DNA of 64,000 nucleotides. Source: Polychytrium aggregatum (taxonomy: Eukaryota; Chytridiomycota; Chytridiomycetes; Polychytriales). The notes beneath the pieces are model-generated. The model worked only from the letters and a program-made list of their open reading frames with translations. It did not search any database and was not told the origin of the DNA. The stretch lies in the NCBI RefSeq assembly GCF_025602895.1, contig NW_026516213.1, positions 434,001 to 498,000 of the forward strand, read 5' to 3'. Of the stretch, positions 13,759-64,000 are shown piece by piece. Position numbers and translations under genes: made by a program. Every line of letters starts with the position of its first letter. Position 1 is the stretch's first letter.

Positions 13759-13997
13759 TGTTGTGCTGGCTGGGCTGACCGATCGATCAGTGTCGTCTCG
13801 TTGCCCTTCCGTTCTGCGGCCGAGTCTTGTTGGACTGCCAGACACTGAACACGATTGATCCAACATTGAGTTGCGTGTGGTGGATGGTGAATGGTGATGA
13901 AGATGGTGGTGGATTGCGCTGTCGACATCCAGTCCTTCCTGCATCGCACCGGGTTCTCTGGTGGACAATCTGCGGGATTTCAGTCGTCTCGAGTGAT
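13759..13997. other. Intergenic spacer before the duplicated segment
   Basis: This is the 3' flank of the reductase gene up to the edge of the duplicated segment. No gene is visible. Confidence 0.5.
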
Positions 13998-14374
13998 TCC
14001 ACCACACCCACAGGTTCCAATCGAGGCTGCAGATGGTCACGGCCTGCCCTTTCCACATGTTCACACCACCTCAGTCGACGACATGCCAGCTCAATGACCG
14101 AATGAACATCGAGGGCCATCATCAGCCTGGTGGCCCCCAGATGGCGTCAGCCAACACAGTCGACGAGACTTCTCGATGTGAATGACAGCCGGCCACAACC
14201 CGCTGGTTTCACTTGTTTGTCCTCGGTCGATTGCAGCGATGCGGGCGAAGGAGAGCACAGTGACGACATGGTCCCCTGCCGCCCGCTGGAAAGTGACCCG
14301 ATCGCTCTTGTCACTGTTGCCCACACAGAGAAAGGCCGTGTCTTGCTCGTTTGCACAACATGGTTTGGGACTGT

Positions 14375-14732
14375 CCTTCGTCGGTCTCATTCACCAAACC
14401 TTCGTCGGTCTCATTCACCAAACCTTCGTCCGTCTCGGTCACCAAACCTTCGTCCGTCTCGGTCACCAAACCTTCGTCCGTCTCGGTCACCAAACCTTCG
14501 TCCGTCTCGGTCACCAAACCTTCGTCCGTCTCGGTCACCAAACCTTCGTCCGTCTCGGTCACCAAACCTTCGTCCGTCTCGGTCACCAAACCTTCGTCCG
14601 TCTCGGTCACCAAACCTTCGTCCGTCTCGGTCACCAAACCTTCGTCCGTCTCGGTCACCAAACCTTCGTCCGTCTCGGTCACCAAACCTTCGTCCGTCTC
14701 ATTCACCAAACCTTCGTCCGTCTCAGTCACCA
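14375..14732. repeat. 24-bp tandem array, 14 units plus a partial one
   Basis: The unit is close to CCTTCGTCCGTCTCGGTCAC plus CAAA, with CATTCACC variants at the edges. It lies downstream of the WD40 gene. The inverted copy at 63.2-63.4 kb has only 10 units. Confidence 0.95.
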
Positions 14733-14830
14733 ACGCAACTTGGCGAGGGAGAATGAGTCTCGCTCTTGGCTTTCCGATCTTCTCGATCCCCTGCGTGCAC
14801 ACCAGCACCCAGTTCCCCGTGCTTTGCTGC

Positions 14831-17800
14831 TCATTGCACCGGACAGCTTTCTTGGCCTTCGTCGCTGTCGTTGTGGCTGTCGGAGGCGTCGTCGATGTTG
14901 CTGCTGTGAGCGTGAAAGATGGAGCCATAGAGCAACAGCCTCTGGATCGCAGCAAAGGTCGACGACTGTCGGCGGCGGTAGAGGCGGTGTCCAATAAAGC
15001 CGATGTTTTCCGAGCAGATCCGGGATGCTTGGCTCATGAGCGACGAGCTCGGCGGCAGCGCCGGGGTAGTGGTGACGTCGGTTGGCGGGAACTGAGCGGG
15101 TGTCGTTTCCGACTCGACCCCATCCGAGGACGAGCCGTGGTCGCCCACCGAGTCCGTGTCCAGCCGCTTCGAGTACTGCAAACAGCAGTTCACGGGAAAC
15201 AGCTTTGAGGACGGACGGGGCTGCACGTCTCGGTTCAGGTGGGAGTCTGGAAGCCAGCTGCCCGTCGCCAGTCCCGCCTCCTGCTGGGCCGCCTCCAAGG
15301 CATCCATGTCCAAGCTCCACAGCCGGTTGTTTGGGTAGATGGGCTCAAAGATCTTGATGGTGCTGTCGATGCCGCTGACGGCTATGACGGGAGCGTGCGG
15401 ATGGCCCTGGATGACATTGACGACCTCCGAGTCGCCTGCAAGCAGCTGCACGAGCCTGGTGCTCCTCTTGTCCCAGATGAAGGCGTATCCGTCGTCCGAT
15501 CCCGAGACCACGTATCGATCCGATGCTCCATAAAAGTTGACATCTGGTCAGGACAGGGTTGCGCGAGGCACAGGCCATCAGCGGATATCGTGGGAAACCC
15601 CGGTCATCGGCAGATGTCGTGGGAGACCCCAGTCATCGGCAGATGTCGTGGGAGACCCCAGTCATCGGCAGATGTCGTGGGAGACCCCAGTCATCGGCAG
15701 ATGTCGTGGGAGACCCCAGTCATCAGCGACACAAGCAACTTGAGGCACGGCCGACGGGAAGCAACCTCCCGGTCGACGAATCGCCTGTCGGCAGCAGGCC
15801 AACTTACCCTTGGTCGTCTGTGCAGAGCCAGGCCGATCCCGGTCGAGAAGGAGAGCCGCACATGAGCCATCCGCACGTGAGCCATCCGCACATGAGCCGT
15901 CCCATCAAAAGTGCGCATGGCCGTGCGACACAACACATCAATCGATCCTGTCCGCTTACCCGACAACTTTGATGTCCCTGTGGTGGCATCGAGTGGCATC
16001 GAGTGGCATCGAGTGGATGTGGCACGATCAGCACATCGCATGGCCCGACACACCATCCCACCGCAGACTCGGCCGCCACATGCCATCGGATCGCCAGAGT
16101 CGTCATTCGGTGCCATACCTTGAAGACCCTCGATGGCTTCACGTTGGTCAGATGCGGCCACACCTCTGACGCATCTGGATCGCTCTTGCCAAGCGAGTGC
16201 GTGGTCCTCCACATCCCATCGTCGCTATCAGAGTCGTCAGAGTCGTCAGAGCCTTCGGAGGTGTCAGAGCCATTGGGTTCGTCAGAGCCTTCGGAGGTGT
16301 CAGAGTCGCCAGGGCCGCTGCCTTCAGAGTCCTCGACCATGTCGTCGCTCTCGCCGACCGATTCCATGTCGGCATCGCTCTCGGGCCGCTCGGGCCGCTC
16401 AGCCGGCCCCTCAGCGGCCTGTGCTGCTGAAGAGGCATCCGATCCATGTCTCTGCTTCAGACTGCCATGCTCATGCGGCTGCCTTTGCTTGTGCGGACTG
16501 CGGCGTCGACTTGCACCTGCACTTGCACCTGCACTTGCACTTGCACTTGCGCTTGCACCTGCACCTGCACTTGCACTTGCACTTGAACCTGCGGCCTCCT
16601 CCTGTCCGCTGTGTTGACTGTCGTCCGCACGGAAGGCTCCGATCAGCTCGACCGGTTCCAGAGCCTGGATCCATCGCTGGCCCCAGCGACTCCACAGTTC
16701 GATCGATCCTGCGCGCTCAGAGAGCAGGATGCCATCCAAGCACTCGACAAAGGCCTGGCGATCGCCCGAGGTCCTCGCGGGCCATTTGGCTTGGCGAAGC
16801 GTTGCCTCGGCATCTTGGAGGCGCTCGATGGTTTGTTCAGAGGTGTCTGTGGTTGAGAAGAGTGCCAGCGCCCACTCGCTGGCTGCTCGCAGCAGATGGC
16901 CCATGCATTGATGCTTGCGCTTCTCCAAGGCACAGCGGGACTGCACCAGCGCTTGCTGCAGCAGATGCTCGCGGTGTGCCGCGACGGCAGGATCCTCTTG
17001 GCAGTTGAATATCTTGATTCGCTTCAGCGGCGACTCGCCAGAGTGTCTTGGGTCCGAGCTGGCCAGGGCCGCAGCGTCGTCCCGGTTGCTCTGGTTGCTG
17101 CTCTGGTTGCCGTCCCGGTTGCTGTTCTGGTTGCCGTCCCGGTTGCCGAGGTCGAGGAACCACCTCAGATAGATCCGGGCACAGTTCCGGTGGCAGCACG
17201 CATCGACAACCGGTCGCAGATCCCACAGGGTCCAGACGTCCTTGATGCGGTCAATCTCGAGCAGGGCCTCTTGGTATCGCATCTGCCCCAACAGATCAGC
17301 AGCTCGGTCGACCAGGGCCTGGACCTCGACCTGGGCCTTGGCCAGCTGCGCCAGATCCATTCCCTCGCTCATCTCGACCCTGGACTCGTCCGGGCCCGCC
17401 CGGGTCTGCAGGCCCGAGCGAATGTCAAACAGATAGACGAGGTCCTGCGAGTAGCTCAGCAGCAGCTCATCGCCCGACTTGGAGAACTGACAGGAGGTGA
17501 TGTCCGAGTCGTTGCGGATGTTGTCCGAGGTCGCTCGGAAGGTCGCCACGGCTCGCTGCGGCATCCGCAGATCGTGCAGGAAGGCTTCGGGGTGGCCGCC
17601 GGCACAGACAATATAGTTGGAGTTGGCCGGGTTGAGCGAGAGGCTGTTGAGATGGATGCCAAAGCTCTGGTAGTCGACAACCACATGGCGACAGGCCGAT
17701 CTGGGTGTGCACTCGTGCTTGACCCGGACATCGAACTGGCGGACGGTTCCGTCTTCGGAGCATGTCAGTGGACAGTGCGGGGAGTCGTGGTTGACGACCA

Positions 17801-18326
17801 CCCGCTTGACCCTGCTGGTGTGGCATCGATAGACGTTGCGGACGCTTCCTTGCTCGCGATGTGGAGCCAGAGAAATGTCATGGACCCGAACCTGCGAGTC
17901 GCCGGCGACGCTCACGACGACCGAGTCTCCGGTTCCAGGGATAAACTTGGCTCCAAAGATATTGGCAGAGTGGCCGGTGTGGAATCGGGTCAGCAACCTG
18001 CTGCCGCGCTGGGCAGACGCCGGCTGCATCGGCTGCATCGGCTGCATCGGCTGCATCGGCGTCCGAGCATTCTCTCGCTCAGGCGGCGGCGCCGGCGCCG
18101 GGCCGGGCGAGTATTCCCAGAGACAGAGATGCAGGTCGTCGGATCCAGAGATCAGATGCCGGCCCGAGTCTGACCAGGCCAGGGTGTTGACGCAGCCGCG
18201 ATGGGCTTTGAGGATCTGCGAGAGCGAGAGCTGGGCGAGCAAGAGTGGGCATTCTGTTGTCTGGCGCGAGAACCCCAGCGGATGCATGGGCTCGTGCTCT
18301 CGCCGAGAGAGCAGCCGATGGGCCAT
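14831..18326 (-). CDS. WDTC1/DCAF9-like WD40 and TPR protein, copy 1
   Basis: The ATG at 18326 opens a 736-codon exon to 16119. A final coding block runs 15543-14831. WD40 repeats come first (GCVNTLAWSDSGRHLISGSDD, FHTGHSANIFGAKFIP, HTSRVKRVVVNHD), then a TPR-like helical part (LLGQMRYQEALLEIDRIKDV), a low-complexity acidic and Ala/Ser region, and last two WD repeats (VSGSDDGYAFIWDKRST, GHPHAPVIAVSGID). This order matches WDTC1, a substrate receptor of CUL4-DDB1 ubiquitin ligases. That role is inferred from the family. The join between blocks is unresolved: a small exon at about 15977-15960 with good splice signals leaves the last block one base out of phase. The protein matches the copy at 59.6 kb except for very few residues. 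Confidence 0.8.
15604..15719. repeat. 29-bp tandem array, 4 units, within the WD40 gene
   Basis: Four copies of a unit beginning TCATCGGCAGATGTCGTGGG lie in the presumed last intron of the minus-strand WD40 gene. The inverted copy at 62.2 kb has three. Confidence 0.95.
16507..16590. repeat. 6-bp coding repeat (Ala/Ser/Gly tract)
   Basis: ACTTGC and ACCTGC hexamers encode an Ala-Ser-Ala-Gly tract of the WD40 protein on the minus strand. The same hexamer makes the non-coding array at 20.73-20.80 kb. Confidence 0.85.
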
Positions 18327-18344
18327 GGCCGAGACGTTGTTCGT

Positions 18345-18421
18345 GATGGGCAGATGGGCAGATGGGCAGATGGGCAGATGGGCAGATGGGCAGATGGGCA
18401 GATGGGCAGATGGGCAGATGG
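18345..18421. repeat. 10-bp tandem repeat upstream of the WD40 gene
   Basis: About seven to eight copies of GATGGGCAGATGGGCA-type decamers lie just upstream of the start codon of the minus-strand WD40 gene. They are present in the other copy at 59.50-59.58 kb. Confidence 0.9.
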
Positions 18422-18720
18422 CAGCAAGAGCTGGCTTCTGGGTCGGCGTGGATCATCAGCACGGCACATGATTTGCTCATCCTGGCGCTGTCCGAGGCTT
18501 GTCGCCATCGATGGGAACAGCTGCTGCAAGTGCCTCGGGGAATCCAACGCTGGATCAAGATCTCGCAGATCGAGGGCGAATGCAACGCTGGATCAAGATC
18601 TCGCAGGTTCCCATGAGACGGACTGAGCGTCTTGCTGGGCCGAATGAGCCACTCCCAATCCAACAGACCGATGCAGGTCCGCCAGAGATACCAATTGCTT
18701 TCCGCGATGCTGTCGGCTGG

Positions 18721-24076: not shown

Positions 24077-24163
24077 GCTCCTGGGGATGCTGCCGATAAT
24101 ATCATGGGGGGAGGAGGAGGCACTCTTTTTGTTTGGGTTTGGTTTATTTTTTGTTTCGCTTTA
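24077..24163. other. Short spacer, 3' flank of the reductase gene and left target site
   Basis: AT-rich spacer ending in the TA (24162-24163) next to the left terminal repeat of the transposon. Confidence 0.6.
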
Positions 24164-24189
24164 CAGGCGATCCAATATAAAACGGGACA
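24164..24189 (+). repeat. Left terminal inverted repeat
   Basis: Begins CAGGCGATCCA right after TA and ends ACGGGACA. It contains TATAAAA (24176-24182), so the end itself may supply the core promoter of the transposase, whose ATG is about 70 bases downstream. Confidence 0.85.
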
Positions 24190-24247
24190 CCCGGGTTTTT
24201 GACCATTCATCGAATATTTTGTTACCCAATGTTATCGCGCGCTGGCC

Positions 24248-25180
24248 ATGACCATTCGCCACACATCCGACTTTCGCACCGCCGCATTGCGATGCTACGC
24301 CCTCATCCATAGCCTGCGTAAGGTCGCCTCCATATTCAGTGTATCCAAGAGCACCATCCATCGATGGCACCGAGGATGCAAGCTGGATGACCCATCCCGA
24401 GTCCCAGCTCGCAGATCCACTTTCTTCGAGCAGGCATGTCCAGTCATTCGCACCCTGATTGAACAGGACCCGTTCCAGACTGGTCCTGTGTTGCGGTGCA
24501 AGCTCGAGTCCATCCTCCAGAGGAAAGTTTCACTCTCACTCTGCCACACTGCCATCCACCGAGCAGGTCTCTCACACAAGAGGGCAACACACCTCTACAA
24601 GTCCAAGCGACTGGATGAGCGAGTGGCACAGTTCAGGGACCAGGTCCGCTCCATCGACCCACGACGATTCGTTTTTGTCGATGAGACAGGGATCAGGAGA
24701 TCCATTTTTCCTCTTTACGGATACTCACCGAAGGGTGCTCCGCTTCGCCAGCGCAATCACATGAAACACAAGTCTGTCTCGGCTGCATTTGCCATCAACC
24801 ACTCTGGTGTGCTGCATCGCATGTACATCCCCACATCATTCAAGACACACTCGATGGTCGAGTTCTTTGAGCGAGCGACCTTCCCAGACGACTCTGTGGT
24901 TGTGATGGACAATGTCAGCATGCACAAGACAATGGCTGTCCTGGACTGCATCGATCGCCGAGGATGGTCAGTGATCTTCACCCCACCTGCCTCACTCGAC
25001 TTCAATCCCATCGAGAACTTCTTTGGGATTGTGAAGCATCAGTACAGGAAGGCAGCAGCGCTGAATGCGTCCGAGGGGTTCAGAGTCGGAATGGTGACCC
25101 TGTTTGAGTCTGCCGTTCGGAGGGTGCTTCCAGATGTCTTCCCACGGCTGATTGAGCGAGCGATGCGCTTCTGGGGTTGA
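24248..25180 (+). CDS. DD34E transposase, Tc1/mariner-IS630 superfamily
   Basis: A 310-residue intact frame. An N-terminal helix-turn-helix (KVASIFSVSKSTIHRWHRG) would bind the terminal repeats, and a second DNA-binding half follows. The RNase H-like core shows the three acidic residues in order: FVDETGIR, VVMDNVSMHK and PASLDFNPIENFFG. There are 34 residues between the second Asp and the Glu, the Tc1-type spacing. The enzyme cuts the element out and inserts it at TA. No stop, frameshift or intron interrupts it, so it may still be active. It shares orientation with the Fanzor gene, 250 bases upstream of it. Confidence 0.95.
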   Translation: MTIRHTSDFRTAALRCYALIHSLRKVASIFSVSKSTIHRWHRGCKLDDPSRVPARRSTFFEQACPVIRTLIEQDPFQTGPVLRCKLESILQRKVSLSLCHTAIHRAGLSHKRATHLYKSKRLDERVAQFRDQVRSIDPRRFVFVDETGIRRSIFPLYGYSPKGAPLRQRNHMKHKSVSAAFAINHSGVLHRMYIPTSFKTHSMVEFFERATFPDDSVVVMDNVSMHKTMAVLDCIDRRGWSVIFTPPASLDFNPIENFFGIVKHQYRKAAALNASEGFRVGMVTLFESAVRRVLPDVFPRLIERAMRFWG

Positions 25181-25430
25181 GCTCCCCAATCACGCCGCCA
25201 TTTTCACGCTCAAATCCCTGGCTTGAACCTCTCGGCGATTTTTGAACAGGGTCACTTCCCCAACCAGCCCGCGCAGACGGGCTCCTGCTCTCGGGTATAA
25301 ATGCCACACCTTCGTCCTGCTGCTTTCTTCCCTCATCTCGCCTTGATCTGATCATCGCGCCATTGTACGATAAAAAAAAGTCTCTGTTCTGACCAGTACC
25401 ACTGGCAGGCATCCAGCATCCTCTGCCCCC
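25181..25430 (+). promoter_or_regulatory. Spacer and probable promoter of the Fanzor gene
   Basis: TATAAA at 25296-25301 lies 130 bases before the Fanzor ATG and is followed by a pyrimidine-rich stretch (about 25317-25340). This suggests that the Fanzor gene has its own promoter and is not a read-through product of the transposase gene. Confidence 0.5.
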
Positions 25431-27803
25431 ATGCCTCCGAAGCGCAAGGGTGCCGGTGATGGCCAGCCTCGGCCACCCAGGCCCAAGAAAGCCAAGTCAC
25501 AGTCGGAGCCTGTCTCTGGTTCGTATTCTGACCCCACGCATGCTTGTTCGTCTGTTGCTCCGTCGCTCACCACCACTGCTTCTGCAGATCCAATGGATGT
25601 CGATCCCACCGAGCCTGGTCCATCTACTTCCTCGAGTACTGGCAAGCGATGTCGCCAGTGCGATGGCACCGATCACGAACGTTGCAACACCAACAAGTGT
25701 CCCAAATACCGGCCCCTCAAGAGTTCTGTCGTCCCACTCGTGGATGGAAGGTCATCCGCCCCTCAGTTCAGCTGCTTCAAGCAGACGATGGATGGCTGTT
25801 GTCTCAATCCCGCTCTCCGCGACAAGATCCAGGCCACCGTCGAGGCCATGACCCAGATCCAGTTCGAGGCATCCAGGCTGCTCAACCTGCACATCCTCCG
25901 GTGCATCGAGCAGGATCTTCCCGTCCCCGTCATCTCCAAGTCCACCCCTGCTTTCGTTCGCCAATGCTTCAGGATCGTCCAGGCCGATGCCCTCTCGACG
26001 GCCAGGGATACCAAGAAATACAACGAGCATCTGGTCGCTTCCTTTCGCGACTACCAGACCACTCGGCACGCAGACCTGCCTCCGGCCCCTCGTCTGCCTG
26101 ATGGTGCTCACAGTCAGCTTCTCACCCTGGCTGTCAATGCCTATGCTACCAACTGCACCACCCACCTCAACCTGGCCTACTGGCGACTCCTTCGCCGCTT
26201 CTGCGCTGCCGTCTTCCCAGCCAACAAGCACAAGCACGAAGCCATCGAGGCCTGTCTCGAGCTCTTCGAGAAACCAGGGCAGACTCCACCCAAGGCCGAT
26301 CTCGAGTTCCTATATCCCGACTTTGGCCACGTCCTGGACGAGTTTCGGTACAGCAGCGACCAGGACCGCTTCCGGGCCCTCCATCGCCTCTCACACCATG
26401 TGAGAATCCTCGCCCGAGACAAGATGGTCGACAATGTCCACAAGTGGATCGACTGTGACATGCCCGCCCTCCGAGTCACCGAGCTGCAGCGCCAGGCCAA
26501 GCTGGACGAGCTCACTACCCAAGGCATTCCCTCCGACGACAAGAGGTTCACCAAGGCCAAGTCTGAGCTCGGCACCACCAAGGCCAATATCAACAAGCTG
26601 GCATCCAGGATCAAGTGGGCACTCAAGCAGCTCGCTCTCGACACTCCTCCGGCCGTGTGCACGATGGTCCCTCTCTGTACTGCAAGGGCCAAGTATGTCA
26701 AGATTGACACGGTCACTCTCTGGCAACTCCTTGACACCGAACAGCACCTTGGCCTCACCAGGGACAAGCTCAAGGAAGAAGGTGAGGACGGTGTCAACAA
26801 CCAGGATCGTCTCTGGCGCAGTTGCTTCAAGCTGCGTAGTTCCCTCTTCCAAGAGCGGGACGTGAACAAGAAGCTGTTCAACTACGAGATCAGCACCGAT
26901 GGCATTGGATGCACCATCGGCCTCGTCAAGTTTCTGCCTCGAACCGATCACACCGAGACCATCGAGCCTCCTCCGACTGCCGAACAGCGCATCCAGGCCC
27001 ACATCGGCGACCCAGACCCCAACCGCACCACTTGGATTGGCATCGATCCTGGAGTCGGCTCCATCTTCACTGCGGTCATCCAAGCACCGGGCCACCAAGA
27101 CGAGGTGGTCTCGTTCTCCAATGGTCACTACCAGCACATGTGTGGCCATACGTCCAACACCAAGTGGCACAACACCATGAAGTATCGACTCGACATCGAG
27201 ACCTGGATGTCGACCACCCCCTCGCCCAAGGTGTCGTCCTCGGAGGCTTTCAAGGTCCATCTCACCCATGTCCTGCGACCGGAGCTGCGAGTGCAGCTCG
27301 ACTTCCACCTTGGCAAGAAGGCCCGTCACCATCGCTTCACAGGCCACAAGAGGCGCCAAGTGGCCGTCGACAGGATGTGCAAGGCCGTCCTGAAGCACGC
27401 CCCGATACGGACTGATGTGGTGATTGCCTTTGGCAATGCGTCATGGCGGCAAGGCAAGGGCCACGCATCCAGCCCTCGGAGGCAGCGATTTGCTCGGTAC
27501 TTTGAGCAATTCGAGCACCACCGACGCCGTCCCAATCACCATCATGGAAGCGTCAAGGTGGCCTCAACGAACGAGTTCAACACCTCGCAAGTGTGCTCCA
27601 AGTGCCTGGAGCCAGTTCGGTTGGAAGGACTCGATGCGCCCAGTGTTGCGAATTCCCACTTTGTCAGGAGCTGCAAGAATCCCAGCTGCCGGACAGTGTG
27701 GAATCGCGACGTCAATGCGGCGCGCAACATGATCACAGTATGCAGGTCGATTGTGGAGATCGGAGAGCGACCGGCGGTCTTCACTCGGAGGCTGCCAAAG
27801 TGA
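25431..27803 (+). CDS. Fanzor1-type RNA-guided endonuclease (TnpB/Cas12 relative)
   Basis: A 790-residue intronless frame from the ATG at 25431. Its N-terminus is basic and nuclear-signal-like (PPKRK, PKKAK), followed by a zinc-knuckle-like CRQCDGTDHERCNTNKC at about residues 77-93. The middle is a long helical recognition part. The RuvC core follows: WIGIDPGVGSIFTAVI (D539), a RuvC-II-like stretch with VVIAFGNASW, STNEFNTSQVCSKC (E715; C722, C725), CKNPSC (C748, C753) and WNRDVNAARN (D760). The glutamate sits just before the zinc finger, the displaced position known for Fanzors. The family uses an omega RNA from the element's 3' end to cut matching DNA beside a short motif. Known Fanzor1 genes ride on several classes of eukaryotic transposon. 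Activity here is inferred, but no key residue is missing. Confidence 0.92.
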   Translation: MPPKRKGAGDGQPRPPRPKKAKSQSEPVSGSYSDPTHACSSVAPSLTTTASADPMDVDPTEPGPSTSSSTGKRCRQCDGTDHERCNTNKCPKYRPLKSSVVPLVDGRSSAPQFSCFKQTMDGCCLNPALRDKIQATVEAMTQIQFEASRLLNLHILRCIEQDLPVPVISKSTPAFVRQCFRIVQADALSTARDTKKYNEHLVASFRDYQTTRHADLPPAPRLPDGAHSQLLTLAVNAYATNCTTHLNLAYWRLLRRFCAAVFPANKHKHEAIEACLELFEKPGQTPPKADLEFLYPDFGHVLDEFRYSSDQDRFRALHRLSHHVRILARDKMVDNVHKWIDCDMPALRVTELQRQAKLDELTTQGIPSDDKRFTKAKSELGTTKANINKLASRIKWALKQLALDTPPAVCTMVPLCTARAKYVKIDTVTLWQLLDTEQHLGLTRDKLKEEGEDGVNNQDRLWRSCFKLRSSLFQERDVNKKLFNYEISTDGIGCTIGLVKFLPRTDHTETIEPPPTAEQRIQAHIGDPDPNRTTWIGIDPGVGSIFTAVIQAPGHQDEVVSFSNGHYQHMCGHTSNTKWHNTMKYRLDIETWMSTTPSPKVSSSEAFKVHLTHVLRPELRVQLDFHLGKKARHHRFTGHKRRQVAVDRMCKAVLKHAPIRTDVVIAFGNASWRQGKGHASSPRRQRFARYFEQFEHHRRRPNHHHGSVKVASTNEFNTSQVCSKCLEPVRLEGLDAPSVANSHFVRSCKNPSCRTVWNRDVNAARNMITVCRSIVEIGERPAVFTRRLPK

Positions 27804-27902
27804 TCTGTTTTATTTCTTGTGGCTTTGCTTGACGCGAAGCACAGCACATACTACATGTTCATGGAAACGGCTATATTGTCCCGTTCTTTTCTGAATAAAG
27901 GG
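27804..27902 (+). ncRNA. Candidate omega (guide) RNA region of the Fanzor element
   Basis: The bases between the Fanzor stop codon and the inner right end can fold: TGCTT (27826-27830) pairs with AAGCA (27837-27841) around GACGCG, with outer TGTG/CACA pairs (27818-27848). In this family the guide RNA overlaps the 3' end of the gene and runs into the element's right end, with the guide taken from DNA beyond it. The exact ends cannot be seen. AATAAA at about 27893 could instead serve as the polyadenylation signal of the mRNA. Confidence 0.45.
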
Positions 27903-28126
27903 TATTCTTCGCAAACCAATAAAAAACGGGACACCCGTGATTTTGACGATTGATCAAATGTCTTGTTACCCAATACAATCGCGCGCTGGCCACTCGATTG
28001 CCAACCAGGACGGGAAACAACCTCACGGCTTGCTCGCTGGGGCCTACAGTCAGTCAGCGGGTTTCAGACATCTGAAGCCAGGAAGGAACTGTCCCGTTTT
28101 TTTCTGGATTGACTGTATTCTTCGCA
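27903..28126. mobile_element. Short non-autonomous (MITE-like) relative fused to the right end
   Basis: This piece starts and ends with the same 10 bases TATTCTTCGC (27903-27912 and 28116-28125). Inside, 27915-27992 matches the left end of the main element (24172-24249) at roughly 66 of 78 positions, stopping just where the transposase ATG would be. About 100 unrelated bases follow, then a good right terminal repeat. It codes for nothing and looks like an internally deleted derivative. Confidence 0.65.
28090..28115 (-). repeat. Right terminal inverted repeat
   Basis: TGTCCCG followed by TTTTTTTCTGGATTGACTG, then TA. Read on the minus strand it matches the left end at about 20 of 26 positions, including the first three bases CAG and the inner AAAACGGGACA. 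Confidence 0.85.
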
Positions 28127-48864: not shown

Positions 48865-48884
48865 AGTCGGGGCCATACACTCTA

Positions 48885-49150
48885 TTCAGAAGAAAACGGG
48901 ACATCCTGTTCCGAGCCAGGGCTGTTGGCACGTTCTGGTCCTGAATACACCTCTCATCCATCGTGACCAAAGGGTGTGTCCAAGGAGGCTGGAGACCAAA
49001 CCCACAGAGCTGTCCAGATGGTCGACTGCATGCACCGCACCACAAGTGTCACAACATCAACGTCAGTCGATCTGAGCCAGAGGAGATCGATCGAGTGCGT
49101 TTGATCCGATCCTCCCATGGCCTGCGGACTGCCGTCCCGTTTCGTTCTGA
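48885..49150. mobile_element. Putative MITE related to the Fanzor-carrying element
   Basis: TTCAGAAGAAAACGGGAC at about 48886-48902 and, inverted, GTCCCGTTTCGTTCTGA at 49134-49150 face each other across about 265 bases. Both match the inner part of the terminal repeats of the 24-28 kb element. The interior has no gene. The outermost bases and a clean TA pair are not certain. Confidence 0.5.
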
Positions 49151-56498: not shown

Positions 56499-56655
56499 CT
56501 ATGCTGTTCTGAGCCAGGTAAACCGCTCTTCAGCATCGTAAACCCACACTCGTCCATCACTCATCTTGGCCAAGCGGTGCACCCATGAGCGCCATCCGTC
56601 GCTGCACTGCGATGCCACAATCCAGGGCGACTGCGGAGACCGGAAATCGACTCGG
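56499..56655 (-). CDS. Possible isolated C-terminal exon or gene remnant
   Basis: A minus-strand frame of about 50 codons ends in SDGRVWVYDAEERFTWLRTA and a stop. It is rich in Trp and charged residues and reads like protein, but there is no start, no domain and no upstream exon that I can identify. It may be a remnant or chance. Confidence 0.2.
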
Positions 56656-57085
56656 TGTCATCGCTTAATGCCCGGCGAGGCGATCCCCTGGACTTCAAAT
56701 GGGAACAGACTACATGTCCAAATGGATGGATGTGTCCCGGTTCTACAGAATATGGTCGGTCTAGCTGATGCTGAGTGCAGCCACTGCGTCAAAGCGGAGA
56801 CGATGTAGCACATTTCTCGGCGAGGCCTCAGTGGTGGAGATTGGGTGATTGGACAGGGAGTGGCTCACGGAGTGGACTGCAATATCCTCGGCCAGCGAGG
56901 GAGGACTCAACAATCGACGTCCATATATGCTCGATCAGACCCTCGTTCGACCGGGGAACTGAGCGTGCTCAAACTTGCCCTTGCCTGCGTCGCATACGGA
57001 GCCTCACAGCCCGGAGAGCGCCAACGCCCCTCCCCAGGCTTCCGATTCTCCTGAGCCCGTCAGTACCACCCCGAGAGAGCGGAAA
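56656..57085. other. Upstream region of the CCDC113 gene
   Basis: No gene is visible. TGTCCCGG at about 56738 faintly recalls the transposon ends but lacks their other features. Confidence 0.4.
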
Positions 57086-59203: not shown

Positions 59204-59502
59204 CCAGCCGACAGCATCGCGGAAAGCAATTGGTATCTCTGGCGGACCTGCATCGGTCTGTTGGATTGGGAGTGGCTCATTCGGCCCAGCAAGACGCTCA
59301 GTCCGTCTCATGGGAACCTGCGAGATCTTGATCCAGCGTTGCATTCGCCCTCGATCTGCGAGATCTTGATCCAGCGTTGGATTCCCCGAGGCACTTGCAG
59401 CAGCTGTTCCCATCGATGGCGACAAGCCTCGGACAGCGCCAGGATGAGCAAATCATGTGCCGTGCTGATGATCCACGCCGACCCAGAAGCCAGCTCTTGC
59501 TG

Positions 59503-59580
59503 CCATCTGCCCATCTGCCCATCTGCCCATCTGCCCATCTGCCCATCTGCCCATCTGCCCATCTGCCCATCTGCCCATCA
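59503..59580. repeat. 10-bp tandem repeat upstream of the WD40 gene, copy 2
   Basis: CATCTGCCCATCTGCC-type decamers, the inverted counterpart of the array at 18.35-18.42 kb. Confidence 0.9.
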
Positions 59581-59597
59581 CGAACAACGTCTCGGCC

Positions 59598-62500
59598 ATG
59601 GCCCATCGGCTGCTCTCTCGGCGAGAGCACGAGCCCATGCATCCGCTGGGGTTCTCGCGCCAGACAACAGAATGCCCACTCTTGCTCGCCCAGCTCTCGC
59701 TCTCGCAGATCCTCAAAGCCCATCGCGGCTGCGTCAACACCCTGGCCTGGTCAGACTCGGGCCGGCATCTGATCTCTGGATCCGACGACCTGCATCTCTG
59801 TCTCTGGGAATACTCGCCCGGCCCGGCGCCGGCGCCGCCGCCTGAGCGAGAGAATGCTCGGACGCCGATGCAGCCGATGCAGCCGATGCAGCCGATGCAG
59901 CCGGCGTCTGCCCAGCGCGGCAGCAGGTTGCTGACCCGATTCCACACCGGCCACTCTGCCAATATCTTTGGAGCCAAGTTTATCCCTGGAACCGGAGACT
60001 CGGTCGTCGTGAGCGTCGCCGGCGACTCGCAGGTTCGGGTCCATGACATTTCTCTGGCTCCACATCGCGAGCAAGGAAGCGTCCGCAACGTCTATCGATG
60101 CCACACCAGCAGGGTCAAGCGGGTGGTCGTCAACCACGACTCCCCGCACTGTCCACTGACATGCTCCGAAGACGGAACCGTCCGCCAGTTCGATGTCCGG
60201 GTCAAGCACGAGTGCACACCCAGATCGGCCTGTCGCCATGTGGTTGTCGACTACCAGAGCTTTGGCATCCATCTCAACAGCCTCTCGCTCAACCCGGCCA
60301 ACTCCAACTATATTGTCTGTGCCGGCGGCCACCCCGAAGCCTTCCTGCACGATCTGCGGATGCCGCAGCGAGCCGTGGCGACCTTCCGAGCGACCTCGGA
60401 CAACATCCGCAACGACTCGGACATCACCTCCTGTCAGTTCTCCAAGTCGGGCGATGAGCTGCTGCTGAGCTACTCGCAGGACCTCGTCTATCTGTTTGAC
60501 ATTCGCTCGGGCCTGCAGACCCGGGCGGGCCCGGACGAGTCCAGGGTCGAGATGAGCGAGGGAATGGATCTGGCGCAGCTGGCCAAGGCCCAGGTCGAGG
60601 TCCAGGCCCTGGTCGACCGAGCTGCTGATCTGTTGGGGCAGATGCGATACCAAGAGGCCCTGCTCGAGATTGACCGCATCAAGGACGTCTGGACCCTGTG
60701 GGATCTGCGACCGGTTGTCGATGCGTGCTGCCACCGGAACTGTGCCCGGATCTATCTGAGGTGGTTCCTCGACCTCGGCAACCGGGACGGCAACCAGAAC
60801 AGCAACCGGGACGGCAACCAGAGCAGCAACCAGAGCAACCGGGACGACGCTGCGGCCCTGGCCAGCTCGGACCCAAGACACTCTGGCGAGTCGCCGCTGA
60901 AGCGAATCAAGATATTCAACTGCCAAGAGGATCCTGCCGTCGCGGCACACCGCGAGCATCTGCTGCAGCAAGCGCTGGTGCAGTCCCGCTGTGCCTTGGA
61001 GAAGCGCAAGCATCAATGCATGGGCCATCTGCTGCGAGCAGCCAGCGAGTGGGCGCTGGCACTCTTCTCAACCACAGACACCTCTGAACAAACCATCGAG
61101 CGCCTCCAAGATGCCGAGGCAACGCTTCGCCAAGCCAAATGGCCCGCGAGGACCTCGGGCGATCGCCAGGCCTTTGTCGAGTGCTTGGATGGCATCCTGC
61201 TCTCTGAGCGCGCAGGATCGATCGAACTGTGGAGTCGCTGGGGCCAGCGATGGATCCAGGCTCTGGAACCGGTCGAGCTGATCGGAGCCTTCCGTGCGGA
61301 CGACAGTCAACACAGCGGACAGGAGGAGGCCGCAGGTTCAAGTGCAAGTGCAAGTGCAGGTGCAGGTGCAAGCGCAAGTGCAAGTGCAAGTGCAGGTGCA
61401 AGTGCAGGTGCAAGTCGACGCCGCAGTCCGCACAAGCAAAGGCAGCCGCATGAGCATGGCAGTCTGAAGCAGAGACATGGATCGGATGCCTCTTCAGCAG
61501 CACAGGCCGCTGAGGGGCCGGCTGAGCGGCCCGGGCGGCCCGAGAGCGATGCCGACATGGAATCGGTCGGCGAGAGCGACGACATGGTCGAGGACTCTGA
61601 AGGCAGCGGCCCTGGCGACTCTGACACCTCCGAAGGCTCCGATGAACCCAATGGCTCTGACACCTCCGAAGGCTCTGACGACTCTGACGACTCTGATAGC
61701 GACGATGGGATGTGGAGGACCACGCACTCGCTTGGCAAGAGCGATCCAGATGCGTCAGAGGTGTGGCCGCATCTGACCAACGTGAAGCCATCGAGGGTCT
61801 TCAAGGTATGGCACCGAATGACGACTCTGGCGATCCGATGGCATGTGGCGGCCGAGTCTGCGGTGGGATGGTGTGTCGGGCCATGCGATGTGCTGATCGT
61901 GCCACATCCACTCGATGCCACTCGATGCCACTCGATGCCACCACAGGGACATCAAAGTTGTCGGGTAAGCGGACAGGATCGATTGATGTGTTGTGTCGCA
62001 CGGCCATGCGCACTTTTGATGGGACGGCTCATGTGCGGATGGCTCACGTGCGGATGGCTCATGTGCGGCTCTCCTTCTCGACCGGGATCGGCCTGGCTCT
62101 GCACAGACGACCAAGGGTAAGTTGGCCTGCTGCCGACAGGCGATTCGTCGACCGGGAGGTTGCTTCCCGTCGGCCGTGCCTCAAGTTGCTTGTGTCGCTG
62201 ATGACTGGGGTCTCCCACGACATCTGCCGATGACTGGGGTCTCCCACGACATCTGCCGATGACTGGGGTCTCCCACGACATCTGCCGATGACCGGGGTTT
62301 CCCACGATATCCGCTGATGGCCTGTGCCTCGCGCAACCCTGTCCTGACCAGATGTCAACTTTTATGGAGCATCGGATCGATACGTGGTCTCGGGATCGGA
62401 CGACGGATACGCCTTCATCTGGGACAAGAGGAGCACCAGGCTCGTGCAGCTGCTTGCAGGCGACTCGGAGGTCGTCAATGTCATCCAGGGCCATCCGCAC

Positions 62501-63064
62501 GCTCCCGTCATAGCCGTCAGCGGCATCGACAGCACCATCAAGATCTTTGAGCCCATCTACCCAAACAACCGGCTGTGGAGCTTGGACATGGATGCCTTGG
62601 AGGCGGCCCAGCAGGAGGCGGGACTGGCGACGGGCAGCTGGCTTCCAGACTCCCACCTGAACCGAGACGTGCAGCCCCGTCCGTCCTCAAAGCTGTTTCC
62701 CGTGAACTGCTGTTTGCAGTACTCGAAGCGGCTGGACACGGACTCGGTGGGCGACCACGGCTCGTCCTCGGATGGGGTCGAGTCGGAAACGACACCCGCT
62801 CAGTTCCCGCCAACCGACGTCACCACTACCCCGGCGCTGCCGCCGAGCTCGTCGCTCATGAGCCAAGCATCCCGGATCTGCTCGGAAAACATCGGCTTTA
62901 TTGGACACCGCCTCTACCGCCGCCGACAGTCGTCGACCTTTGCTGCGATCCAGAGGCTGTTGCTCTATGGCTCCATCTTTCACGCTCACAGCAGCAACAT
63001 CGACGACGCCTCCGACAGCCACAACGACAGCGACGAAGGCCAAGAAAGCTGTCCGGTGCAATGA
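59598..63064 (+). CDS. WDTC1/DCAF9-like WD40 and TPR protein, copy 2
   Basis: First exon 59598-61805, last coding block 62352-63064. Differences from copy 1 include Gly for Glu in AERPGRPESD. The encoded domains are the same: N-terminal WD repeats, TPR-like helices, an acidic Ser/Asp tract (SDTSEGSDDSDDSDSDDG) and C-terminal WD repeats. A small exon 61947-61964 has good GT-AG borders and would encode GHQSCR, where homologues have a GH motif. Joining it to 62352 shifts the frame by one base, so the real junction, or a mutation shared by both copies, remains open. Both promoter regions were copied too, so both genes may be expressed. Confidence 0.8.
61347..61413. repeat. 6-bp coding repeat (Ala/Ser/Gly tract), copy 2
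   Basis: GCAAGT/GCAGGT hexamers in frame in the WD40 gene, the counterpart of 16507-16590. Confidence 0.85.
62203..62289. repeat. 29-bp tandem array, 3 units, copy 2
   Basis: Three copies of the unit found four times at 15604-15719. Confidence 0.95.
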
Positions 63065-63168
63065 GCAGCAAAGCACGGGGAACTGGGTGCTGGTGTGCAC
63101 GCAGGGGATCGAGAAGATCGGAAAGCCAAGAGCGAGACTCATTCTCCCTCGCCAAGTTGCGTTGGTGA

Positions 63169-63430
63169 CTGAGACGGACGAAGGTTTGGTGAATGAGACG
63201 GACGAAGGTTTGGTGACCGAGACGGACGAAGGTTTGGTGACCGAGACGGACGAAGGTTTGGTGACCGAGACGGACGAAGGTTTGGTGACCGAGACGGACG
63301 AAGGTTTGGTGACCGAGACGGACGAAGGTTTGGTGACCGAGACGGACGAAGGTTTGGTGACCGAGACGGACGAAGGTTTGGTGACCGAGACGGACGAAGG
63401 TTTGGTGAATGAGACCGACGAAGGACAGTC
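63169..63430. repeat. 24-bp tandem array, 10 units plus a partial one, copy 2
   Basis: GAGACGGACGAAGGTTTGGT plus GACC units. Four fewer than in copy 1. Confidence 0.95.
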
Positions 63431-63801
63431 CCAAACCATGTTGTGCAAACGAGCAAGACACGGCCTTTCTCTGTGTGGGCAACAGTGACAAGAGCGATCG
63501 GGTCACTTTCCAGCGGGCGGCAGGGGACCATGTCGTCACTGTGCTCTCCCTCGCCCGCATCGCTGCAATCGACCGAGGACAAACAAGTGAAACCAGCGGG
63601 TTGTGGCCGGCTGTCATTCACATCGAGAAGTCTCGTCGACTGTGTTGGCTGACGCCATCTGGGGGCCACCAGGCTGATGATGGCCCTCGATGTTCATTCG
63701 GTCATTGAGCTGGCATGTCGTCCACTGAGGTGATGTGAACATGTGGAAAGGGCAGGCCGTGACCATCTGCAGCCTCGATTGGAACCTGTGGGTGTGGTGG
63801 A

Positions 63802-64000
63802 CATCTCCGAGGCGGCCAGTGTGGATGCTCGGCAATCGATTGTATATGGCAGTAATATTAGACGACTTGCGCGTTCAAACGAGAAAATGGACACTGTTTT
63901 ACCCATATTGATTATCTTATTGCCTGGTGCATTCGCTCTGAGGATTAGAATCCAAGAGAGCGGTGGATGGTGACGGGCTTTGGATGATTTGACGAGGACA
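63802..64000. other. Unique flank beyond copy 2
   Basis: Homology to copy 1 stops at 63801. The last 199 bases are more AT-rich and show no gene. A hydrophobic frame (VLPILIILLPGAFALRIRI) near 63.9 kb is too short to call. Confidence 0.4.

Follow-up and report, generated by a model that had tools for sequence, protein, structure and literature searches.

In the TnpB elements of the IS200/IS605 and IS607 type, the guide is derived from the right flank of the element and the target motif lies at its left border. These elements are bacterial and rely on other transposases, though their layout of guide and motif is like the one we propose here for a transposon of the chytrid Polychytrium aggregatum. 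It was found in a stretch of 64,000 bp, referred to as the window (RefSeq assembly GCF_025602895.1, contig NW_026516213.1, positions 434,001 to 498,000 of the forward strand), and combines a transposase of the IS630/Tc1/mariner superfamily with a nuclease of the Fanzor1 type, both assignments being supported by domain matches and sequence motifs. The kind of element is already known, while the family itself is abundant and new. In a literature search, neither this family nor a one-sided border base attributed to a Fanzor as opposed to a transposase came to light, which is no proof of absence.

Fanzor1 genes within Mariner transposons were reported in 2013 (PMC3627910, which, like PMC10432273, PMC10711439 and PMC5481204 below, is cited from part of its text). 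Elements of the PGv-1 group likewise unite a Mariner-type transposase and a Fanzor1 in one element with TA borders and terminal repeats. However, these are single-copy elements, and PGv-1 has an extra GIY-YIG protein, whereas the present family displays one transposase lineage, two different Fanzor modules, and a high copy number. In Spizellomyces punctatus, which has 42 Fz loci, 19 of them full length, SpuFz1 has the cleavage motif CATA, and the CA is conserved on the left side of the 5' repeat, in deletion derivatives, termed ghosts, as well (PMC10432273). Its element SPu-1 resembles ours in carrying a Fanzor1 between inverted repeats with TA, with the conserved left-border bases forming part of the cleavage motif (PMC10432273, PMC3627910), and its ghosts keep the right-end RNA just as the ghosts described here keep their right end (PMC10432273). 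In contrast to our element, SPu-1, which represents the best-studied fungal case, was found to have no transposase within its repeats as far as the cited parts describe it (PMC10432273, PMC3627910), and the motif would be TTA instead of CATA (PMC10432273). A further parallel is the Fanzor1 reRNA of SfAV, in that the predicted scaffold extends over both the terminal repeat and the target duplication; the SfAV element, however, is viral and non-autonomous, its transposon class is unknown, and its RNA was sequenced, while ours is predicted from sequence (PMC10711439).

A search of the window's own assembly (64.7 Mb, 418 contigs) resulted in 52 matches to the region. At least 34 of these are long, the window copy itself and 33 more with 95–97% DNA identity. 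All copies that reach the right end terminate within about 11 bases of position 27904 and none at 28117, with the exception of L030, which ends earlier, and the flanking DNA varies between copies. Thus, the element comprises positions 24164–27902 (3739 bp), lying between two TA dinucleotides and bounded by imperfect inverted repeats of 26 bp, which are slightly mutated in the window copy relative to other copies of the family (family A). TA was present at 26 of 27 distinct left borders and 25 of 26 distinct right borders of family A. The adjoining 27912–28115 turned out to be a separate, non-coding ghost of about 200 bp from a related family (family B), which occurs elsewhere alone and with its own TA-flanked ends.

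The earlier note on this DNA had read 24164 to 28115 as a single element. Though 24162–24189 and 28090–28117 do form a repeat pair of 82% complementarity, apart from the window's own, none of the 52 matches covers the 3952-bp unit in full, and since other copies end near 27904 and 27912–28117 is found alone, the border at 28115 was refuted and a single element of that extent is highly improbable. Of the 26-bp inverted repeats the note described, the left one held, while the right one it used (28090–28115) belongs to the ghost; TA adjoins both ends as claimed, at the left border at 24164 and the right border at 27902, and further copies with matching borders, whose absence the note would have counted against itself, are numerous in the assembly. 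The 11 bases TATTCTTCGCA follow the right end of the main element and again that of the ghost (27903–28126). In the window, a copy of the ghost's own right flank thus takes the place of its first bases, and the duplication looks like filler from a repair event. At several loci the element adjoins pieces of family B, a possible clustering. Most of the loci L042–L060 share with the window ghost just the last c. 128 bases of family B, their left parts being different. The features of the window are compiled in Table 1.

Table 1. Features of the transposon, the adjoining ghost, and related remnants in the window
Feature	Position	Strand	Basis
T and TA, with T left of TA; proposed TTA target-adjacent motif	24161..24163	+	Sequence; border counts in the family
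Left terminal inverted repeat (26 bp), start of element	24164..24189	+	Sequence and comparison of copies
Transposase, 310 amino acids (aa), DD34E, IS630/Tc1/mariner superfamily	24248..25180	+	Open reading frame (ORF), domain matches, motifs
Fanzor1-like nuclease, 790 aa	25431..27803	+	ORF, domain and profile matches, motifs
Predicted omegaRNA scaffold, 5' hairpin and long stem closed by TA	27816..27904	+	Computed folds
Right terminal inverted repeat, true right end of element	27877..27902	-	Sequence and comparison of copies
TA at right border	27903..27904	.	Sequence; 25 of 26 distinct right borders
Putative guide segment of the RNA	27905..27920	+	Analogy with SpuFz1 only, 14–15 nt past the conserved part (PMC10432273)
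Family-B ghost, non-coding; its right end had been mistaken for that of the main element	27912..28115	+	Matches elsewhere
Family-B fold resembling a guide RNA, closed by its own TA	28045..28117	+	Folds, pair counts
Isolated remnant, related right inverted repeat	48876..48903	-	Sequence comparison
Decayed remnant, right part of a related element	56583..56657	+	74–76% over 70–76 bases

In regard to the coding content, the earlier note was right in describing an intact DD34E transposase and an intact 790-aa protein on the same strand, each in one uninterrupted frame, and its assignments to the Tc1/mariner type and to Fanzor1 are both borne out. The transposase displays the catalytic triad D145, D221, and E256, matches DDE_3 (4.4e-21), and reaches 114.3 bits with the IS630 equivalog model (cut-off 100), while its match to HTH_23 stays below the cut-off of that model. 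Four loci (L027–L030) show a common deletion of about 246 bases in the transposase gene, and three of these four keep the 790-aa Fanzor frame.

The 790-aa protein matches PF07282, the Cas12f1-like TNB domain (6.5e-9), and contains GIDPG at residue 537 (D539), the alternative glutamate E715 within NEFNTS, D760 within NRD, STDGIG at 488–493, and a C4 zinc ribbon. The published C-terminal motif of Fanzors reads D-X(125,275)-[TS][TS]-XX-C4 zinc finger-X(5,50)-RD (PMC3627910), and a pattern built from it matches the protein, with 178 residues between D539 and T718. Signatures described for Fanzor1, namely DPG and the alternative glutamate in the RuvC domain and TDG in the WED domain (PMC10711439), are all present as judged by motif. 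With a profile made from the window and locus sequences, the best relatives of solved structure were SpuFz1 (E 0.0047), GtFz1 (0.14), and LaTranC (0.17), while a single-sequence search against solved structures resulted in LaTranC alone, at 0.64. Models for TnpB and Cas12 match only the C-terminal part, below the cut-offs where these are given. Close viral relatives of this Fanzor were looked for, and none was confirmed. In the 790-aa copy at L005, a lysine replaces the proposed catalytic glutamate (NKFNTS).

The most conspicuous feature of the family is a base on one side of its borders. Counting distinct sites, for which three second members of same-flank pairs were left out, T stands left of the left TA in 25 of 27 cases (background of T before TA in the window 0.13, p 3e-20), while A, its counterpart on the other side, stands right of the right TA in 6 of 26. 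Genome-wide, exact end patterns were counted, with the left pattern covering the two spellings CAGGC and CAGTC; reversed control patterns gave 0 each, and the counts include contig pairs resembling two haplotypes. This revealed 233 left ends, 220 of them with T before TA (about 94%) and 13 with another base, and 308 right ends over all four following bases, 102 followed by C and 206 by A, G, or T. Among 100 of the latter that were listed, 28 had A, 44 G, and 28 T, so that A right of the right TA is estimated from this part at about one-fifth of the 308. Left ends listed for contigs C1 to C157 had T in 84 of 86 (CAGGC) and 16 of 19 (CAGTC) cases. Five of the six CAGGC ends without T adjoin a listed transposase match. 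The four deletion derivatives that were fetched all keep both ends, with at least c. 97 bases on the left and at least c. 166 on the right.

Mariner/Tc1 elements are described as integrating into a TA, which is symmetrical, with palindromic AT-rich sequence being favored (PMC5481204). Since the two ends are joined to this symmetrical TA, a one-sided bias is unexpected of the transposase alone. The bias to T on the left fits TTA as a target motif of the Fanzor, and its confinement to one side suggests that the Fanzor, beyond the transposase, may influence where copies persist. Alternatively, T before TA might reflect a target preference of the transposase complex through an asymmetric contact at the left end, with the Fanzor as a passenger that has no role in the persistence of copies. 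For this speaks that ghosts lacking the Fanzor keep the T: a right end could be assigned to 71 CAGGC left ends, 70 of which have T, and all 16 of these pairs that are shorter than 3 kb have it. Furthermore, another left end, CAGCGTTTCC, a type seen among L042–L060, is preceded before TA by T in 52, A in 34, and G in 6 of 92 cases (C was not searched), which means that the preference varies by family whatever its cause. Against it stand the asymmetry itself and the behavior of a nearly identical transposase that travels with another Fanzor, described below, and we regard a mere transposase preference as doubtful, though as a serious competitor.

This second Fanzor module is of the B type. Searching with a fragment of such a Fanzor yielded 1473 candidates, of which 142 were scored, and 36 of the scored hits lie in open frames of at least 800 residues. 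Of the Fanzors scored, a family-A one lies downstream of 33 among the 128 transposase hits listed and a B-type one downstream of six, while for the remaining 89 no scored Fanzor of either type was seen there. In the six B cases, the transposase is 92–97% identical to that of the window, and the Fanzor follows at a constant distance, while the B-type Fanzor fragments at L048 and L051 are 50% and 66% identical to the window protein, respectively, over the aligned part. One B element could be read at both ends, and its left end departs from the majority of A copies at only 3 of 116 positions, while its right end is of the B type. At five distinct sites with a confirmed B Fanzor, the bases before TA were T, T, C, G, and A; a sixth site (L075) has T, its B type being deduced solely from the absence of a listed family-A right end. 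Thus, T precedes an intact TA at 3 of 6 sites in this small B set compared to 25 of 27 in family A (p 0.03), or at 2 of 5 if only confirmed sites are counted (p 0.02). L071, which is without a left end, and L072–L074, which show one flank three times and GA instead of TA, were left out of this count. Twelve further stretches fetched at the predicted distance from B Fanzors contained no left end and also stand outside the count of six, so the B Fanzors concerned are not in elements of that layout. Tentatively, and with somewhat less than even confidence, we propose that the Fanzor and its RNA, rather than the transposase, set the left-border base by cutting and re-filling only those empty sites that bear the motif, and that the Fanzor gene, the guide RNA, and the right end pass together, as one unit, between transposons sharing transposase and left end. 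If true, a swap of the module would give the same mover a new target filter.

For the right ends of both families, folding calculations predict an RNA that is closed off by the duplicated TA. In family A, the 88 nt of the right end are predicted to form a hairpin together with a long stem that the TA closes (z -2.4; last 53 nt, z -1.9), and with nine of ten start points tried this stem ends on the final A. In comparison, the left end of the window copy folds poorly (z +0.9). The right end of family B reaches z -4.2 over 73 nt, that of a B element with transposase z -3.7, and the window ghost z -2.55 over 118 nt. Counting pairs in 16 B sequences resulted in 91.5% paired cells compared to 29–45% for slid versions.

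In regard to the integrity of the family, a search for Fanzor hits covering residues 1–790 gave 57 scored among 1264 candidates, and 48 of the 57 were stop-free. Among 30 fetched loci, the 790-aa frame is present in 23, a full transposase frame in 15 (one of 326 aa), and both in 10. The ratio of nonsynonymous to synonymous changes (dN/dS) among 26 copies is 0.31 for the Fanzor and 0.21 for the transposase. Three contig pairs (L009/L017, L015/L018, and L012/L020) share their flanks at 99.6–99.9% where aligned, apart from the right flank of L015/L018 (95.6–98.1%) and that of L012/L020, which could not be aligned, and the elements within them differ by 3.0–3.5%. Calculated from match positions, the insert length differs by about 70 to 325 bases in six partner pairs. 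Diversity in the family is reduced at the ends of the element; it was determined column-wise, and nothing was inferred from the phase of variants. Conversion or replacement at the level of the element was considered and dropped, as linkage is at chance beyond 25 bases (r2 0.04, 26 copies); most variants that differ within the pairs also occur in other copies (99/131, 106/120, and 82/111). The differences within pairs are probably due to a scrambled consensus in assembly repeats, with real fine-scale exchange as a possibility. Statements on intact frames of individual copies are weakened by this scrambling. No strong excess of changes resembling repeat-induced point mutation was found, with 961 changes from C:G to T:A and 746 from A:T to G:C against the majority.

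Altogether, the element is an IS630-like DNA transposon of the Tc1/mariner superfamily with a Fanzor1, and we consider it rather probable that the Fanzor and its guide RNA keep insertions at T-TA and form an exchangeable module. The transposase would move the element into a TA, and transcription of the last c. 90 bases together with the right flank would supply a guide RNA with this TA as part of its scaffold. The Fanzor with its RNA would then recognize T-TA followed by the old right flank, i.e., the empty site, and after a cut there the element would be restored or spread by repair that uses a filled copy, by which insertions at sites bearing the motif would be retained. Fanzor, guide RNA, and right end might be exchanged as one module while transposase and left end stay. 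A repair role of the nuclease, as put forward in the earlier note, is consistent with the sequence data.

Several results weigh against this reading. The T is equally strict in ghosts and in full elements, which would fit a Fanzor acting in trans and equally a preference of the transposase, and the comparison with the B set is small and unplanned. The RNA of the window copy itself folds no better than shuffles in its last 53 nt (z about 0; 115 nt, z -1.25) and carries substitutions in the stem, and the reverse strand of the family-A right end reaches z -1.7. Consensus folds calculated with RNAalifold on the copies leave the last A unpaired in both families, for which we slightly lowered our confidence, and 30 B rows give a different and weaker fold. 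The 16 B right ends revealed no double-sided base-pair change and no covariation above shuffles. AlphaFold, run on eight sequences, gave an unusable model with a mean predicted local distance difference test score (pLDDT) of 36.

A further point of this kind is the lack of empty sites. Flanks were joined in silico for 17 and 10 sites, three of which were in both sets, plus three B sites, and 40 candidates were scored per search, among which an empty site was expected to score highest. At the resulting 21 distinct family-A sites, no match spans the junction; nor was an empty site found for the three B sites, two being without a listed partner and one having a filled partner. Fifteen of the 21 sites have a listed second contig that shares their flanking DNA, with both flanks in seven cases and one flank in eight, and in seven of the latter eight an element end or a transposase or Fanzor match was listed beside the flank, while for the partner of L008 the insertion is deduced from a match ending at the junction. 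Since the second contigs thus carry the insertion as far as listed, no insertion was seen as polymorphic, and target duplication, mobility, and homing are not supported so far by the joined-flank data. The earlier note had called the element young and possibly active and had suggested a search for empty TA sites; this description is not upheld by these results, nor by the mutated ends of the window copy. Homing is not claimed from the absence of empty sites, which old insertions explain as well and which the B sites share.

These same observations would suit a relic family, in which the two genes were once jointly active, the copies are old and fixed, and the Fanzor has no present function, and the small number of fetched loci with both frames intact points in this direction, too. 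That most scored Fanzor hits are free of stops over 790 aa, that dN/dS is about 0.3, and that 36 of the 142 B-type hits lie in long open frames, speaks against a relic, which we consider unlikely. Elsewhere in the window, 13985–18720 and 59204–63814 form an inverted duplication of about 4.7 kb with 98–99.8% identity around a center c. 40 kb in length, either arm of which contains an ORF of 840 aa; it may be a real palindrome or a fold-back of the assembly.

The present family bears on what Fanzors do for eukaryotic transposons. In P. aggregatum, transposase and Fanzor occur together in many copies, ghosts are present, and two Fanzor modules travel with nearly one transposase. This provides a useful natural experiment on the role a Fanzor plays for its transposon, in which the influence of the nuclease on insertion sites can be told apart from the influence of the transposase. 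Should the border base go with the Fanzor, this would be genomic evidence of RNA-guided cutting shaping the survival of insertions in a eukaryote, and the TTA motif would be directly testable.

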